Shown in pieces: positions 33,063-41,445 of a stretch of DNA of 64,000 nucleotides. Location of the stretch: assembly GCA_903872345.1 (NCBI GenBank), contig CAIQKM010000166.1, positions 1 to 64,000 on the forward strand. Direction: 5' to 3'. How positions within the stretch are numbered: position 1 is the first letter of the stretch; each line of letters starts with the position of its first letter. The notes below the pieces were generated by a model, which was given only the letters and a program-made list of their open reading frames with translations, did no database searches and was not told where the DNA came from. The translations under genes were made by a program, and so were the position numbers. The DNA is from an uncultured Verrucomicrobia subdivision 3 bacterium. GTDB taxonomy: Bacteria; Verrucomicrobiota; Verrucomicrobiia; Limisphaerales; UBA11358.

Positions 33063-33854
33063 TTAATTGATCTTGGAACTTCCCGGCGGAACGACGACTG
33101 CCGGCCACGGCGGCAGCTCATCCTCCGCGATAAACCAAAGCTGATCCTGCGCCACCCAGCCGGTTTCATCATTGGCCGTGCGGACAAAATAATATTTCCC
33201 GCGCACCGACCGGCACCGCACCAGCTCCCCGGCCGCAAACCGTGAACGCACCTGCGCCGTCTGGGTCGGCGTCTGGCGCAGCGGCACATTGGCCTCCCGG
33301 ATCACCGCCAGTTTGGTGCGGCCATGAATTCCCGCCAGCGCCGGCAGGGTCAGGACGAACGTCCCCAACGCCACCGCCGCCAGCAATTGCGGCCAGACCG
33401 ATTTACGCCACCGGAAAACCACCGGCAACAAAACCAGCGCCACCGCCAGCCACAAACTGGCCGCCGCCAGCCCTGCCCACAGATTCACCGGCAGCCACGT
33501 GGAATATTTTTCCGTCCACGTCAGTGAAAGCTCCGAAAATTGCCCCAAACCGTCCACAAACCGCAGACTCGCCGCCGCATTCGTCTGGTACGGATTGAGC
33601 CACAGCGCCCGCTGCCACGCCAGCACCGCCTCGCCGGGGTGCCCCGCCTGCCAGGCTGCGTCGCCAAAATTATGCCACGCCTCCGCCGACGGCGCGCGCC
33701 TGAGTTCGCCTTGGAAAAACCGCGCGGCATTCGTGAACTGGCCGGCCAAATACGCCGTCCGCCCCGGCACGAACACGTCTTCCGCCCCTCGCGCCGGCAC
33801 CACGCCCAGCAGTGCGGATACGACCGCAAACCAAATGCAAATGCGTTTTACCAT
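33063..33854 (-). CDS. BatE-like TPR/SH3 membrane protein
   Basis: A signal peptide (about 1-23, VVPARGAED) is followed by a TPR segment (YLAGQFTNAARFFQGEL, then AWHNFGDAAWQAGHPGEAVL), two membrane helices (about 125-145 and 155-175) and a C-terminal SH3-like domain (about 185-245, VRSRFAAGELVRCRSVRGKY). The order matches BatE proteins of Bacteroidota aerotolerance operons. The start ATG 33854 overlaps the batD stop by seven bases (ATGGTAA), showing coupled translation. The open frame extends far upstream but only as antisense to batD. Last gene of the operon. Confidence 0.82.
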   Translation of the reverse strand: MVKRICIWFAVVSALLGVVPARGAEDVFVPGRTAYLAGQFTNAARFFQGELRRAPSAEAWHNFGDAAWQAGHPGEAVLAWQRALWLNPYQTNAAASLRFVDGLGQFSELSLTWTEKYSTWLPVNLWAGLAAASLWLAVALVLLPVVFRWRKSVWPQLLAAVALGTFVLTLPALAGIHGRTKLAVIREANVPLRQTPTQTAQVRSRFAAGELVRCRSVRGKYYFVRTANDETGWVAQDQLWFIAEDELPPWPAVVVPPGSSKIN

Positions 33855-35671
33855 AGCCGCCTCCCCAGAATTTCCAGCAGTGCTTCCAGTTCCGGCTGCG
33901 CGGCCAGCAACGCTTCCGCCGACGGCGGCTCGTTCCGCAAATTCGCCCGTTCCACCGCCGCAAATAGCGTTCCCACCAGCACGTCTGCCGCCGGCCGCAC
34001 AACCTCCGCCGGCAACACCGCCAGAATATCGCCGCCCACGAGCGCCGCCGGATTCGCCGCCGTTTCCGGCGCGCACGCCTCGCGCAAGGCATTCACCCCT
34101 GCGCGGGCAAACGCCACCGCGTCCCGATTGCCCGCCGCCGAGCGCATGAGTTGACGCTGACGCCGCAGCCCGCGCCGCGCCTGCGCCTTGCGCACCACCT
34201 CCGGATGCGCCGCCAGATACCGCCGCCGTTTGTCCCAGTACCACAGCCCCGCCAGCACCAGCGCCGGCACCAGTTGTGCGCCCCAGAAACCCGCCCGCTG
34301 CTGCCATGGCCGCAGGCTTCCCGCAAAATGCACCGGTCGCGCCGACAACCCTGCGAGTGGCGTTTGCAATTCCTGGCCCGCCGCCGCCGGCAGATTGGTA
34401 TCCGCCGATTGAACCATCCCCGCCACCGGCGGCATCACCTGCACATTGATCGCGGGAATCGTCAGGTCCACATAAACACCCCGGTCCGGATCAAAATAGC
34501 AAAACGGTATGGACGGCGTGGACAGTAGTCCGGCCCGCTGCGGAATCAGTGTGTACCGGAAAATATTGCTGCGCTGCTGTTCGATGAGAATCGCCGGCGT
34601 CTTGTCCGGTACCGGCGGAAACGCCTGCCAGTCCGGGCCCTCCGGACACTTCGGCGGCACCAAACGGCCGAGGTTGCCTTCTCCCGCCACCGTCACCGTC
34701 AAATCCATTGGATCCCCCGCCCGCACCGGCTGCGGCGCCGCCACCGGTTGCATCACAGTGAACCGGCCGATCAACCCCGTAAATCCCGGCAGCGCCCCCT
34801 TGGGCAAATGCTGCACATGCACCACCGCCGGCAGTGATTCATACAGCGGCTGGTAACCTGTAAAAGTGTTTTGCAACGACCCCGGCCCGGGCCGCCGCAC
34901 CACCATCGCCTGCGCCACCAATTTCAAATCCCCTTCCCGCACCGGCACCACCGCAATGTTGTCAATCAAAGCGGACACCTGCTGACCGTCATAATCCCGC
35001 ATCGCCCGCCGCTGTCCCCCGGGAGACGAGTCGCAAATGAAATCATCGCCCTCGCCCTTCAGGCTGCCCAGACCGTAGATGCTGTTATCGCCCGGGTCCA
35101 GCGCCGCCACCGGCACGGATATTTTCTGTCCGATATAAAATTTGCCCGCCGGCACCTCCACCTGCACCCGGGGCGCCCGCACCGCGCCCGCCGCGCCCGC
35201 CGGCAATACCGTGAGCGTCTTCGCCGGCACCGGCACGGCCCGGCTGTTTGCGCTGAGGGTGAACGCGGGAATCGTAAACGTTCCCGCCGTCCGGGCCGTC
35301 ACCCAGTAAATAAACGTGGTGCGAAACTGCATGCCCAGGTTGTTAAAACCGATCGTGTGACCGCTGCCGCCCGCCCGGATTTCCAACTCCGGCGGCGCCA
35401 CCAGCTTTTCCGGCGGCGCCGTGGACTCCGGACTGGCCGTAACCACCAGCCGAAAGATCACCGGCTGGCCCACCGTCACCACCGGCGAATCAAACTCCGC
35501 ATCCGCCGTCACCCCCCCTTCCGCCGCCCCCATCCGGACCAACTGCGAAATGATCGGATCCAGCGGCGTGTTCGCCGCATTCCCCGGCGGCCCCTGCGCA
35601 CGCAACGGCAAGTCGCCCGCCAGCCACAGCAGGGTCGCCACCGCAAATACGTTGTAAACGCGTGTTTTCAT
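33848..35671 (-). CDS. batD: BatD-like exported protein
   Basis: A signal peptide (about 1-26, cleavage after LRAQ) precedes a long beta-rich extracytoplasmic part typical of BatD (PF13584): VTVGQPVIFRLVVTASPEST, then VTARTAGTFTIPAFTLSANS. A membrane helix lies near 455-472 (FWGAQLVPALVLAGLWYW), followed by a helical cytoplasmic tail of about 130 residues that is Ala-rich. Its start ATG shares one base with the stop of the preceding gene (TGATG). It probably interacts with BatA/BatB in the envelope. Confidence 0.88.
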   Translation of the reverse strand: MKTRVYNVFAVATLLWLAGDLPLRAQGPPGNAANTPLDPIISQLVRMGAAEGGVTADAEFDSPVVTVGQPVIFRLVVTASPESTAPPEKLVAPPELEIRAGGSGHTIGFNNLGMQFRTTFIYWVTARTAGTFTIPAFTLSANSRAVPVPAKTLTVLPAGAAGAVRAPRVQVEVPAGKFYIGQKISVPVAALDPGDNSIYGLGSLKGEGDDFICDSSPGGQRRAMRDYDGQQVSALIDNIAVVPVREGDLKLVAQAMVVRRPGPGSLQNTFTGYQPLYESLPAVVHVQHLPKGALPGFTGLIGRFTVMQPVAAPQPVRAGDPMDLTVTVAGEGNLGRLVPPKCPEGPDWQAFPPVPDKTPAILIEQQRSNIFRYTLIPQRAGLLSTPSIPFCYFDPDRGVYVDLTIPAINVQVMPPVAGMVQSADTNLPAAAGQELQTPLAGLSARPVHFAGSLRPWQQRAGFWGAQLVPALVLAGLWYWDKRRRYLAAHPEVVRKAQARRGLRRQRQLMRSAAGNRDAVAFARAGVNALREACAPETAANPAALVGGDILAVLPAEVVRPAADVLVGTLFAAVERANLRNEPPSAEALLAAQPELEALLEILGRRLW

Positions 35672-37746
35672 CACCAATTGCGCCCGTTCTTTTTCTTGGG
35701 CTCCGCCTGCGTATCGCTCACGGACAGCTTCCGGCTCAAATCCGAATGCAACGACGACAGCAACTGCATCGCCTCATCCGGCGTCAGCGCCTGCTGCTGG
35801 CCTTCGTTGCCCTGGTTTTCCTGCCCATTGGGATCCGTTTTTTTCGGCTCATCACCGTCATCCTCATCGCCCCCCTTGCCGCCTTTGCCGGGATCATCGC
35901 CGGGCATTTTCTTTTTAAGCGCATCCATCTTCCCCTTCAAATCCTGCTTCAATTTTCCCAGCATTTGCATCATGGCCGCCATTTGCTGCTGCTGTTTTTT
36001 CAACGCCTGCAGATTCCGGTCCACAATGTCGGCATTAAACTTCGCGTTCTCGTAATTGGGTTTCAGTTCGACCGCGCTTTTGAAATCCCCCCAGGAACGC
36101 AGCCAGCGCGCCATCACCTTGTCATTGGTGTCCATGGCATTTTTCACCGCCGTCTGCATCTGTTTCAGACTGTGCGAGGTCAGGCGGCCAAACTGATACG
36201 CCTCCATGATTTCCGAAAGATCATCCGCCGCCAGCGCGGCATCGGCGCGCTTGATGGCCGCACTTCCGAGCCGCTGGTTCGGTCCCGCCTCGTTGGCCAG
36301 GTCGCCCGCTTTCGGCGCATTTTTCAGCATCTCCTGCCCCGCGCGAAAACGCACATAGCCCAAATTGTACAACCCCGCCGGCTGGAGCGCCCCGTCATCC
36401 TCGGTCACCGCCGCATCCAGCGCCGTCTCCGCATCATGCAGATTCTTGTCTTTCAGCTTTTGCGTCCCCTGATTGAACAGCTCGCGGGAAGTCAGCGGCT
36501 TGTCAGTGTCATTCTCCGCCGCCCGCACACCGGCTGACAAAAATAGCAGGGTGACTAGCAATGGCAGCTTATGACTTGCTTCCTCTAATAACGATTTGCC
36601 CGCCGGTGCGACCGATCCGGCGACAGGTCTTTCCCCAGGCGCTGGAACCGTTTCCCCCTCTCCCCGGGGGAGAGGGCCGGGGTGAGGGCGAGCGTCAAAC
36701 CTTTCAAACCATAATCCTCCCCCGTGTAACCTCCGCCTTGTCCCCAGCAACGACTCCACCACCACCAAAATCAATACCACCGCCACCGGCACCTGAAAAT
36801 GATCCACGCCTTCCTTGCGGGTGGAAACAAACGCCCGGATGCCTTCCTCGTTTTCCAGCACCGACCGGATGCGATTCAGCCCCTGCCCCAGCGGCCCCAG
36901 CGGCTGGTATGTTCCGTGCGTGGCCTCCGCAATCGCCCGCATCGTCGGCTCATCCAGCCGGCTCACCACGATCTGCCCCTGCGAATCGCGCAGCGGCGTC
37001 CGGTTGCCCTGCGCATCCGTCACCACCAGTTCGCTGCCGGACGCCGTACCCACGCCCACTGTGAAAATCAGCACGTTTTTCGTCGCCAGCTCTTTGGCGC
37101 TCTGAATGCTCGCCTTCTCCAAATCTTCGCCGTCGGAAATCAGCACCAGAATCTTGCGCCGGTCGTTTTTCTCCACCGCCGCGTAGCCCTCGGCCAGCGC
37201 GCGGCCAATGTCCGTGCCTGGCACGGGAATCGTTGAATCATCCACTGCATTCAACGCGTCGCGGAACGAGTCATAGTCGAACGTCAGCGGACATTGCAAA
37301 AACGCCTGTCCCGCGAACGCCACCAGGCCCACGCGCCCGTGGCTGTAATGCTGCACAAAATCATTGATTGCCAGCTTGGCCCGGCCAATCCGGCTCGGCT
37401 TCACATCCGGCGCCTGCATGCTCGCCGAACAGTCCAGCAGAAACACCACATCCTCGCCCAGCGACTCGGACTTTTCCTCGCGTTCACCCCACTGCGGCCG
37501 CGCCATGGCCAGTCCGATCACAAACACCGCCACCACCAGCAACGCCTGTTTAATATGACGCCGGCGCGCACTGTGTCCCCGCAGCATGGCTTCCAGAAAT
37601 TCCGGGGCCGCCAGCCGCGCCAGTTGCCAGCGCCGCGCCCGGCGGGCATAAAACATCAACGCTACCAGCAGCACCGGCCCCAGCAACGCCAGCGCCAGCC
37701 AGGCCGGCTCGGCAAAATGCGGATGGGAAATATCCGGCAGCGTCAT
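35671..37746 (-). CDS. BatB-BatC fusion: von Willebrand A domain plus TPR
   Basis: Residues 1-345 are a BatB-like protein: two membrane helices (17-34, 66-82), a VWA domain with an intact MIDAS (DCSAS, Asp105/Ser107/Ser109; TDIGRA; SDGED) and a helix near 319-335. Residues 346-390 are a linker containing [13 protein letters not shown], the translation of a common intergenic repeat. Residues 394-409 ([16 protein letters not shown]) look like an internal signal peptide, and the rest is BatC-like: TPR helices and a Gln/Lys/Gly/Asp-rich low-complexity tail. In most genomes batB and batC are separate. I use ATG 37746, which overlaps the batA stop by four bases. Confidence 0.88.
36654..36689. repeat. 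Palindromic repeat inside the batB-batC joint
   Basis: CCCTCTCCCC / GGGGGAGAGGG (36656-36676) is a near-perfect palindrome followed by CCGGGGTGAGGGCG. This is the well-known intergenic repeat translated as [11 protein letters not shown]. Here it is in frame within a coding sequence, exactly between two domains that are otherwise separate genes. Confidence 0.8.
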
Positions 37747-38783
37747 GGAATCCTCCTGAGCCAGGTCGCGGCCAGTATCAGTTCCAGCGCCAGCGCGCCC
37801 AGCGCCGCGCCCAAGGGCCACTGATACAGCGGCGTGTGCTGCGTAAACCGCCGCAGCTTCACGTCCGTCTTTTCCAGCCGGTTGATGTCATCGTAAATCC
37901 CCGCCAGCTCCGACTGGTTCGTCGCGCGATAATTCTTCCCGTGCGTCACGTGAGCCATCTGCGTCAGCACCGTGTAATTTGCCGGCTGCAACGTAATGGT
38001 GGGAATAATGTCCCCGCGCGCATCCAGTCGCAGCACGCCGGTGGCCGGATCAAACGCCGGCAGCCGGCACGGCGTTTCCTGACCAATACCAATGGTGTAA
38101 ATCTTGATGCCCAGCGCCGCCGCCAAATCCGCCGCCGGCAACGGATCAATCTCGCCCGCGTTGTTGTCGCCGTCCGTCAGCAAAATGATGATCTTGCTCT
38201 TGCTGTTTTTGATCGTGCTCAGCCGTTTCACCGCCGAGGCCGTGGCGTCGCCAATTGCCGTGCCAAGGTCATGCACCGTGCCAATATGTACCCGGTTCAG
38301 ATTCGCCACCACCCAGTCATGATTGAGCGTCAGCGGGCTGGCCGTGTAAGGTTCCCCGGAAAAAACGATCAACCCCAGCCGGTCGCTCACCCGCCGCTGA
38401 ATAAAATCCCGCAGCACCGACTGCGCAATGCTGAACCTCGTGATGCGCTCGCTGGGTTTGCCCATGTCAATGGACATCATGGACCACGACACGTCCACCA
38501 GCAAAACGATGTCCACGCCGCTCGCCTGCACCTCCGTCTGTTCGCGGGAAATGCGCGGACCCGCGAGTGTCACGATTAGCAATGCCGCCATGAGCAGCCG
38601 CAGGAAAAACAGCAGCCGCCCCGCACCCGACCGCGCCGGCCGCCCCGCCGACCGGGCCAGCTCCGCGCTCGAAAACCGCAGCGCCGACAGTTTCCCCACC
38701 CGGCCGCGCAACACCGCATACACCGGCAGCAGGCCCAGCAGGCCCAGCACCCACGGCGTTTGAAATTCAAAATGAGGCATCAT
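37743..38783 (-). CDS. batA: BatA-like von Willebrand A domain protein
   Basis: A membrane helix (8-25) and a second (56-75) are followed by a VWA domain with the MIDAS residues DVSWSM (Asp97/Ser99/Ser101), LGTAIGDA and TDGDNN, and by a final helix near 322-340. This fits BatA, which binds divalent metal through MIDAS and is anchored with BatB. The residues 240-285 are an insertion relative to BatB. Start ATG overlaps the upstream stop (ATGA). Role in oxidative stress is known for Bacteroides Bat operons; in this lineage it is inferred. Confidence 0.9.
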   Translation of the reverse strand: MMPHFEFQTPWVLGLLGLLPVYAVLRGRVGKLSALRFSSAELARSAGRPARSGAGRLLFFLRLLMAALLIVTLAGPRISREQTEVQASGVDIVLLVDVSWSMMSIDMGKPSERITRFSIAQSVLRDFIQRRVSDRLGLIVFSGEPYTASPLTLNHDWVVANLNRVHIGTVHDLGTAIGDATASAVKRLSTIKNSKSKIIILLTDGDNNAGEIDPLPAADLAAALGIKIYTIGIGQETPCRLPAFDPATGVLRLDARGDIIPTITLQPANYTVLTQMAHVTHGKNYRATNQSELAGIYDDINRLEKTDVKLRRFTQHTPLYQWPLGAALGALALELILAATWLRRIP

Positions 38784-39357: not shown

Positions 39358-40257
39358 TCAACTGCGCCGCCACCGGCGGTGTTCAAAAAAATGCTGCAAC
39401 AACGGCGCAAACGGCCGCCCCGTCTCCAGCCGCAACGTATCCACGCCCTCGCGCTGCCAGCCAAGTTCCAACGCCGCCAATCGTTCCGCATTGACCGTCG
39501 CGTACTGTTCGCGAACCGCCGCGCGCCCCAGATTCAGCTCCACCAGTTCGCCCGTCTCCGCATCCTCCAGCGTGATCAGCCCCGCATCCGGCAGCTCCGC
39601 TTCGCGCGGATCATGCAGATGCAGGCAGATCAAATCATGCCGCGCATTGGTCTGGCCGATGGCCCGCGCCATTTCATGATCCGCCGGCTGCAAAAAGTCG
39701 CTCAATAAAAACACCATGGACCGGTGGCCCAGCCGGTGATTGGCATGCTTCAGCGCCACCCCCACATTGGTGCCGCGCTGTTTCGGCTCGAAAAATAAAA
39801 TTTCCCGCAGCACCCGCAGCAGATGCCGCCGCCCCTTGGCCGGCGGCACAAACAGTTCCACCTCCTGCGTGAACAGCAGCAAACCCACCTTGTCCCCGCT
39901 CCGCGCCGCCGCGAAGGCCAGCGTGCCCGCCACTTCCGCCGCGAGTTGACGTTTGCTGCGCTGCGTGGACCCAAATTCGCCCGAGGCCGAGACATCCACC
40001 ACCAGAATCATCGTCAGCTCGCGTTCCTCGCGATAGCGCTTCACAAACGGACGCCCCATGCGGTTTGTCACGTTCCAGTCGATGTGCCGCACATCGTCGC
40101 CCGGCACATACTCGCGCAACTCCTCGAAATCCATGCCCCGCCCCTTGTACGAGGTCAGGTACGCGCCCACCATGGCGTCGTTGGCCAGCCGGCTGGCGGC
40201 CACCTCCACCTTGCGCACGGTCTCGATCAGATCAGCTAGTGCCTGTTCGCGATTCAT
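39358..40257 (-). CDS. DUF58 domain protein
   Basis: The family signature is clear: GRGMDFEELREYVPGDDVRHIDWN near residues 39-62 (shown in part), followed by a VWA-like fold with VVDVSASGEFG and SDFLQPAD. DUF58 proteins are the usual partner of MoxR ATPases and are thought to act in metal insertion or protein maturation. It has no membrane segment. It is 132 bases downstream of moxR and two bases ahead of the next gene. Confidence 0.92.
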   Translation of the reverse strand: MNREQALADLIETVRKVEVAASRLANDAMVGAYLTSYKGRGMDFEELREYVPGDDVRHIDWNVTNRMGRPFVKRYREERELTMILVVDVSASGEFGSTQRSKRQLAAEVAGTLAFAAARSGDKVGLLLFTQEVELFVPPAKGRRHLLRVLREILFFEPKQRGTNVGVALKHANHRLGHRSMVFLLSDFLQPADHEMARAIGQTNARHDLICLHLHDPREAELPDAGLITLEDAETGELVELNLGRAAVREQYATVNAERLAALELGWQREGVDTLRLETGRPFAPLLQHFFEHRRWRRS

Positions 40258-40389: not shown

Positions 40390-41445
40390 TCATGGCACCG
40401 GGATGGTGTCGAATATCTTCTTGATGATGGTCTCCGTCGTCACGCCCTGCGACTCCGCCTCGTACGACAAAATAATCCGGTGCCGCAGCACGTCCGGCCC
40501 GATGGTCTTGATGTCTTGCGGCGTCACGTAACCGCGCCCTTGCAGCAAGGCCCACGCCCGCGCCGCCAGTGTCAGCGCAATCGTCGCGCGCGGCGAGGCG
40601 CCGAACTGGATGAAATGTTTCAAATCCAGCTTGTAATCCGCCGGTTGCCGGGTGGCGAAGACAATCTTCACGATATAATTGCGCACATCCTCATGCACCT
40701 GAATCTGGTCCACCAGCTCGCGCGTGCTCAGAATTTCCGCAATCGTCACCAGCGGCCGCACCTTGGGATTCGCCCGCGTAAACGCCATCGTGTCCAGAAT
40801 CTTCCGCTCCTCCGCAAAATCCGGATACCCGATCACCACCTTGAGCATGAAGCGATCCACCTGCGCCTCCGGCAGCGGATACGTGCCCTCCTGATCAATC
40901 GGATTCTCCGTGGCCAGCACCAGAAACGGCGAGGGCAGCGGCAGCGTCCGACCACCCAGCGTCACCTGCCGCTCCTGCATTGCCTCCAGCAGCGCGCTCT
41001 GCACCTTCGCCGGCGCGCGGTTGATTTCATCCGCCAGCACCAGGTTCGCAAACACCGGCCCCTTGGTGGCGCTGTACTTGCGCTCCTGCGGATCGTAAAT
41101 CAGCGTGCCGATGATGTCGGCCGGCAGCAGGTCGGGGGTAAATTGAATGCGGCTGAACTCCGCGTGAATCGCCGAGGCCAGCGTCCGCGCCGCCAGCGTC
41201 TTGGCCAGACCGGGCACGCCTTCCAGCAGCACATGGCCGTTGGCGAGCAACCCCACCAGCAGCCGGTCCACCAGATATTGCTGGCCCACGATGGTATTGG
41301 CAATTTCGGCGCGCAACCGGCCAATCCAGGCCGAGGTCGCCGCAATCCGCGCATCCAGTTCCGCTGGCGACAGCGCCACCGGTGCCACCGGTGCAGCGGA
41401 GACCGTGTTTCCTTCATTTTCTTGACTCATACGGGTATCAGACAT
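40390..41445 (-). CDS. moxR: MoxR-family AAA+ ATPase
   Basis: A chaperone-like AAA+ ATPase. Walker A is GVPGLAKT (near 79-86), Walker B VLADEINRAPAKVQSALLEA (near 134-153), and the sensor-like ATENPIDQEGTYPLPEAQVD and C-terminal GASPRATIAL are typical of MoxR. The first 30 residues are an Ala/Pro-rich extension. It heads the seven-gene Bat operon and would remodel the VWA proteins encoded downstream. The 132-base gap after it is the only sizeable gap in the operon and might contain a second promoter. Confidence 0.94.
   Translation of the reverse strand: MSDTRMSQENEGNTVSAAPVAPVALSPAELDARIAATSAWIGRLRAEIANTIVGQQYLVDRLLVGLLANGHVLLEGVPGLAKTLAARTLASAIHAEFSRIQFTPDLLPADIIGTLIYDPQERKYSATKGPVFANLVLADEINRAPAKVQSALLEAMQERQVTLGGRTLPLPSPFLVLATENPIDQEGTYPLPEAQVDRFMLKVVIGYPDFAEERKILDTMAFTRANPKVRPLVTIAEILSTRELVDQIQVHEDVRNYIVKIVFATRQPADYKLDLKHFIQFGASPRATIALTLAARAWALLQGRGYVTPQDIKTIGPDVLRHRIILSYEAESQGVTTETIIKKIFDTIPVP

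Follow-up and report, generated by a model that had tools for sequence, protein, structure and literature searches.

Introduction

A fusion of BatB (a VWA protein) and BatC (a TPR protein) in a single frame of the bat operon has been reported for Leptospira biflexa, whose close relatives have the two as separate proteins, and bat fusions have also been described in Borrelia, Spirochaeta and Francisella (PMC3557215). The locus analysed in this work, which comes from an uncultured Verrucomicrobia subdivision 3 bacterium, has a VWA BatB part and a TPR-like BatC part in one bat-operon frame, but it differs from the L. biflexa locus in having a palindromic repeat at the joint, a feature not mentioned in the parts of that report on which we draw. 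Given that Leptospira belongs to a different phylum, the two fusions would be independent events.

Palindromic repeats which are translated are known from Rickettsia (the RPE, reviewed in PMC2229807 and PMC10969869). By their description, these resemble the repeat studied here, since they are palindromic elements (~105-150 bp) translated in frame within a conserved protein gene. The present copy differs from them in lying where two fused genes meet, and it is the only one, among the 46 copies of the element that we examined, with a known coding domain clearly present on either side. REP sequences (GTAG/CGTC) can also be found inside genes, for example in uvrA of Opitutus terrae (PMC3733652); they are described as short palindromes present in coding regions (including those of a verrucomicrobial genome), with paired inverted units occurring as well, whereas in the genome studied here no Y1 transposase gene carries the repeat. 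Finally, a MITE-type fusion is known to form a signal peptide in YPO1552 of Yersinia (PMC2229807). There, the palindromic repeat contributes to the signal peptide, a case to which some relatives of our locus (L035, L085 and L096) may be compared, while at our locus the repeat precedes a signal-like helix and does not lie within it. Hence, BatB-BatC fusions and translated palindromic repeats are each known already, and the present case combines both.

The DNA analysed (hereafter, the window) is a stretch of 64,000 nucleotides (contig CAIQKM010000166.1, positions 1 to 64,000) from the genome that we designate G000. It was compared with a second genome carrying the same fusion (G008), and with 68 batB loci of the order.

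Results and Discussion

The fusion gene and its operon

The original prediction placed BatB and BatC in one open frame on the reverse strand of the window, and both the coordinates and the strand proved correct (Table 1). In the BatB part, hydropathy indicates hydrophobic helices at aa ~10-37, 63-87 and 312-338, and the VWA domain spans aa 99-240, with the MIDAS-type residues D105/S107/S109. This part matches VWA_2 in Pfam (6.8e-22) and the PDB entry 3ibs, which is named BatB (1.3e-27), with 4jdu and 3ibs among its best fold matches. The BatC part is homologous to the gene that follows batB in 64 loci and, like the VWA domain, it is well modelled (pLDDT ~92 across aa 421-610); a Pfam search with this part alone returned no TPR match, and its homologue in the relative G108 has a weak match to TPR_2 (0.0015). 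The cleavage-like motif at the end of the signal-like helix reads AQA-AEN in G008. The separate BatC proteins of relatives have a signal peptide at their N-terminus, in the corresponding position, which supports the proposal that the helix past the linker is the counterpart of the stand-alone BatC signal peptide and would mark the original BatC start region.

Table 1. Features of the bat locus in the window (- indicates the reverse strand).
Feature	Position	Strand	Remarks
batD-like gene	33848..35677	-	overlaps the batBC stop; assigned from position and sequence reading; frame as listed, true start may differ
batB-batC fusion gene	35671..37746	-	691 aa, single frame; matching frame in G008
BatC part, aa 411-691	35671..36516	-	all-helical, TPR-like in the model; dN/dS 0.06
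Signal-peptide-like helix, aa 392-410 (394-411 in the model)	36517..36573	-	cleavage-like motif VRA-AEN
Candidate fossil BatC start	36571..36585	-	SD-like GAGGAA (36580-36585), 6 nt, CAT (36571-36573); putative, from sequence
Linker, aa 341-391	36574..36726	-	predicted disordered, pLDDT ~30; dN/dS ~0.8
Genomic repeat copy, ~105-116 bp, codons ~350-388	36584..36699	-	nhmmer, 86.2 bits, E 6e-26
Palindromic core CCCTCTCCCC/GGGGGAGAGGG	36656..36676	.	pattern search
BatB part, aa 1-340	36727..37746	-	Pfam, PDB and fold matches, hydropathy, invariant columns
batA (VWA)	37743..38783	-	overlaps the batB start
DUF58-type gene, bat operon	39358..40257	-	sequence reading
moxR-type AAA ATPase gene, operon start	40390..41445	-	sequence reading

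The gene order at the locus is moxR-DUF58-batA-batB-batC-batD, with the names of the neighbours taken from sequence reading. A second, paralogous bat operon is present in the same genome (G000:C118:21240-22175) and in many relatives; in two loci of relatives that we read (L055 and L057), the BatB of this paralogous operon forms a fusion with a TPR (BatC-type) part as well.

The repeat element in the joint

The palindromic repeat that had been noticed in the joint is indeed there: CCCTCTCCCCGGGGGAGAGGG is matched without any mismatch at 36656-36676, against 0 occurrences in shuffles of the window, and the 13-residue peptide that it was said to encode is located at residues 353-365. The palindrome was recovered by pattern search, and was missed by a repeat search of the 800-bp region. 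Its 21-nt core, CCCTCACCCCGGCCCTCTCCC, has 115 sites with up to 2 mismatches (29 of them exact) in the 6.5-Mb genome G000, with 0 for the reversed control, and 64 sites in G008, and the exact core is present in 31 out of 49 genomes of the genus. This wide dispersal agrees with a MITE/REPIN-like non-autonomous element. The view of the joint as a genomic repeat read through is therefore correct, but its extent had been underestimated, given that it covers ~39 codons and not the palindrome with its 13 residues. An nhmmer profile made from short-form copies of one subfamily, with the joint copy left out, matches 36699-36584, and so the element is ~105-116 bp long and accounts for ~39 of the 51 linker codons (350-388). 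The copies have ACGCTCGCCCTCACCCCGGCCCTCTCCCC..GGAGAGGGGGAAACGGTTGCCGCG and about 60 more bases in common, far beyond the palindrome. A long form of ~180 bp has a second, inverted end, and the short form (to which the joint copy belongs) has no inverted ends.

Read-through of such an element comes easily, since 45 of the 46 distinct copies have one or more frames without a stop. The joint copy shows the RPE-type feature of an element in frame within a conserved protein gene; the copies found within other long open frames (L001, L005, L017 and L138) lie, according to Pfam, outside known domains and mostly in upstream extensions. An Rfam search of the window gave no match. The genome has five PF01797 (Y1_Tnp, RAYT) loci, four of them above the cut-off, with no pieces of the core within ~1.5 kb; as its Y1 transposase genes carry none of the repeat, the idea of a RAYT-mobilised REP was abandoned for want of support. 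A sufficiently close empty site, in which a target-site duplication could be recognised, was looked for and not found; for a second copy of the element in G008 (L111 1036-1145), synteny stops short of the copy.

In two other loci of G000 (L007 on C60 and L121 on C35) the element forms tandem arrays, some of which are broken by an insert, GCGCGGACTCACTCGCGCCCGC...GAACCGTTT. Additionally, a related repeat subfamily (ACCTCACCCCGGCCCTCTCCCCCATTTACC) recurs in the first ~100 bases of several G000 contigs (C5, C25, C53, C104 and others), and for this reason the repeats probably break the assembly.

Fusion in relatives and the order of events

Comparison with relatives found batB and batC to be separate in 50 of the 68 loci (batC often being in another frame) and fused in the remaining 18, with at least 11 changes between the two states on the BatB tree and with shortest fused junctions such as GTRRRAITTVLLALG. 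The description of the two proteins as normally separate is therefore only partly right, since fusions are frequent in the order and were already reported in spirochaetes. The element is absent from 16 of the 18 fused loci, including that of G108, which forms a clade with G000 and G008 (starred, 99) whose three members are all fused. G108 is the closest relative (67% identity in BatB), and a search across the class found none closer. The distance from BatB to BatC is 105 nt in G108 and 216 nt in the repeat-bearing copies, a difference of 111 nt that equals the length of the element. Under a two-state model, the ancestor common to G108 and the repeat-bearing pair was fused with P = 0.81, which is a moderate value. 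Based on this ancestral state, on the repeat-free fusion of the sister G108 and on the 16 repeat-free fused loci, the element most likely landed after the fusion. It would most probably be a passenger that the gene tolerates, and not the cause of the fusion that it had originally been proposed to be.

This proposal deserves nevertheless to be weighed as an alternative history, in which the element inserted at the end of batB, displaced its stop and bridged it to batC (insertion and fusion being a single event), with G108 having fused independently. In number of steps this history equals the favoured one, and since fusion is frequent, G108 could plausibly have fused on its own. Additionally, the element starts ~12 codons past the GTRR motif, and most separate BatB proteins stop ~3-12 residues past this motif. 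Just past the element lies the candidate fossil Shine-Dalgarno-like site and start of BatC, where a signal peptide of classical type would begin if the CAT were an ATG (the bases of G008 in this zone are AGGGAA..CAC). Against these points stand the sister lineage, fused without the element from an ancestor that was probably itself fused, and the other fused loci, all sixteen of which arose without any such element. We consequently regard insertion as an unlikely origin of the fusion, and we retain a fusion that preceded the element.

The BatB proteins of G000 and G008 are nearer to that of G108, which has another family code (67% identity), than to those of their own genus (~51-56%); the operon may have been transferred, or the genus may be very wide.

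The second genome, selection and the start of BatC

The fusion protein of G008 (MAG CAIJGS01, contig CAIJGS010000075, isolate Umea2p1_bin-1422) also has 691 aa, with 88% aa identity, and contains the repeat at the matching place, in frame and with no indels. Between the two genomes, 40 of the 153 linker bases have changed, without any indel or stop codon having arisen. The dN/dS between both genomes is lowest in BatC (0.06), somewhat higher in BatB (0.12) and far higher in the linker (0.79). BatC is thus under purifying selection, and the peptide encoded by the repeat is almost free to change. The open linker by itself is weak evidence for selection (the chance of its staying open under neutral drift is ~0.29), and the lack of indels in it was dropped as an argument, as the moxR-DUF58 spacer (132 nt, 72% identity) is also indel-free. 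Within the element, the palindromic 50 nt (36650-36699 in the window, ~9324-9373 in L111) are 90% identical between G000 and G008, silent sites included, and the remaining 66 nt are 65% identical; this slower change in the palindromic half, which concerns small numbers, may reflect structure or conversion between copies.

In the window copy, there is no in-frame ATG, GTG or TTG between BatB and the hydrophobic core, and the sole start candidates (TTG 396, TTG 403 and GTG 407) are all within the signal helix. As it is constrained and yet has no start codon that could plausibly serve it alone, BatC is probably made only through the fusion. It is also conceivable that two proteins are still made, with batB reading into the repeat and BatC starting internally as well (at TTG 396, or by re-initiation). 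Both genomes have the TTG of codon 396, with SD-like sequences upstream (GAGGAA/AGGGAA), but these are ~20 nt away from it, which is too far, and the product would have no charged n-region; besides, the long form must also be made, because there is no stop. An additional internal start is, in our opinion, very improbable. Both genomes are drafts, in which repeats are liable to errors, so that an assembly or sequencing artefact could have taken a stop or a frameshift away from the repeat; this can be dismissed, since G008 keeps the fusion and the repeat in an intact frame despite all the changes in its linker.

Proposed mechanism

The history and topology that we consider rather likely are the following. 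The BatB-BatC fusion would have been present in an ancestor first, and a non-autonomous palindromic element of ~105-116 bp would then have inserted, in frame, into the inter-domain linker. The positive-inside rule states that positively charged flanks face the cytoplasm. The last membrane helix of BatB is followed by GTRRR, which would thus face the cytoplasm, and the Pro/Gly-rich, disordered segment encoded by the repeat would stay on this side. The former BatC signal peptide would serve either as the fourth membrane helix of the chain or as an internal signal, perhaps still cleaved, and the TPR-like domain of BatC would be carried to the periplasm, beside BatB. Whether the helix is cleaved or not, a cytoplasmic GTRRR and a BatC with a signal peptide would leave the linker on the cytoplasmic side and bring BatC to the outside. 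The fusion would in this way keep the topology of the separate proteins, which may account for the frequency of fusion and fission and for the tolerance of a 39-codon insert.

Hairpin repeats at the junctions of relatives

Unrelated palindromic intergenic repeats were observed between batB and batC in nine other loci (L035, L037, L045, L052, L081, L085, L088, L089 and L096), of which L088 is itself fused. Stem scores of 11 or higher are found in 10 of 64 junctions and in 0 of the matched segments from batB or batC, and paired tests of the stem score across the whole set of loci give weak results (p 0.03 and 0.09). The 3' arm codes for part of the BatC signal-peptide region in L035, L037, L052, L085, L088, L089 and L096, and probably in L081, giving peptides such as FGFRIS, GCWVLDVGC, FAFLILNF and LNFTLLT; in several loci a native-looking hydrophobic core follows the repeat. 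A palindrome whose first arm is A-rich has the layout of a signal peptide, with charged residues (as in an n-region) encoded by this arm and hydrophobic residues (as in the core) by its T-rich complement. Regarding copy number, the CATCCAA unit is abundant (62 to 482 sites in G021, G010 and G263), and the CAAAATTCAAAATTAAAAATG unit is moderately so in G133 (10) and absent from G097 at two mismatches. Both selection and simple landing in spacers may account for these hairpins. We can only tentatively suggest, as a somewhat doubtful generalization, that the batB-batC junction may be a recurrent landing place for unrelated palindromes, whose arms become BatC signal peptides or linkers.

Implications

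The locus offers a clear-cut example of a mobile repeat turned into a protein linker: two diverged genomes both keep it in frame, and it evolves near-neutrally. More generally, BatB and BatC fuse and split freely, plausibly because the membrane helices on either side of their junction leave it in the cytoplasm. The junction hairpins that encode parts of BatC signal peptides are a side finding of this work, maybe of greater interest than the fusion itself, given that they suggest a general route by which non-coding repeats may become secretion signals.
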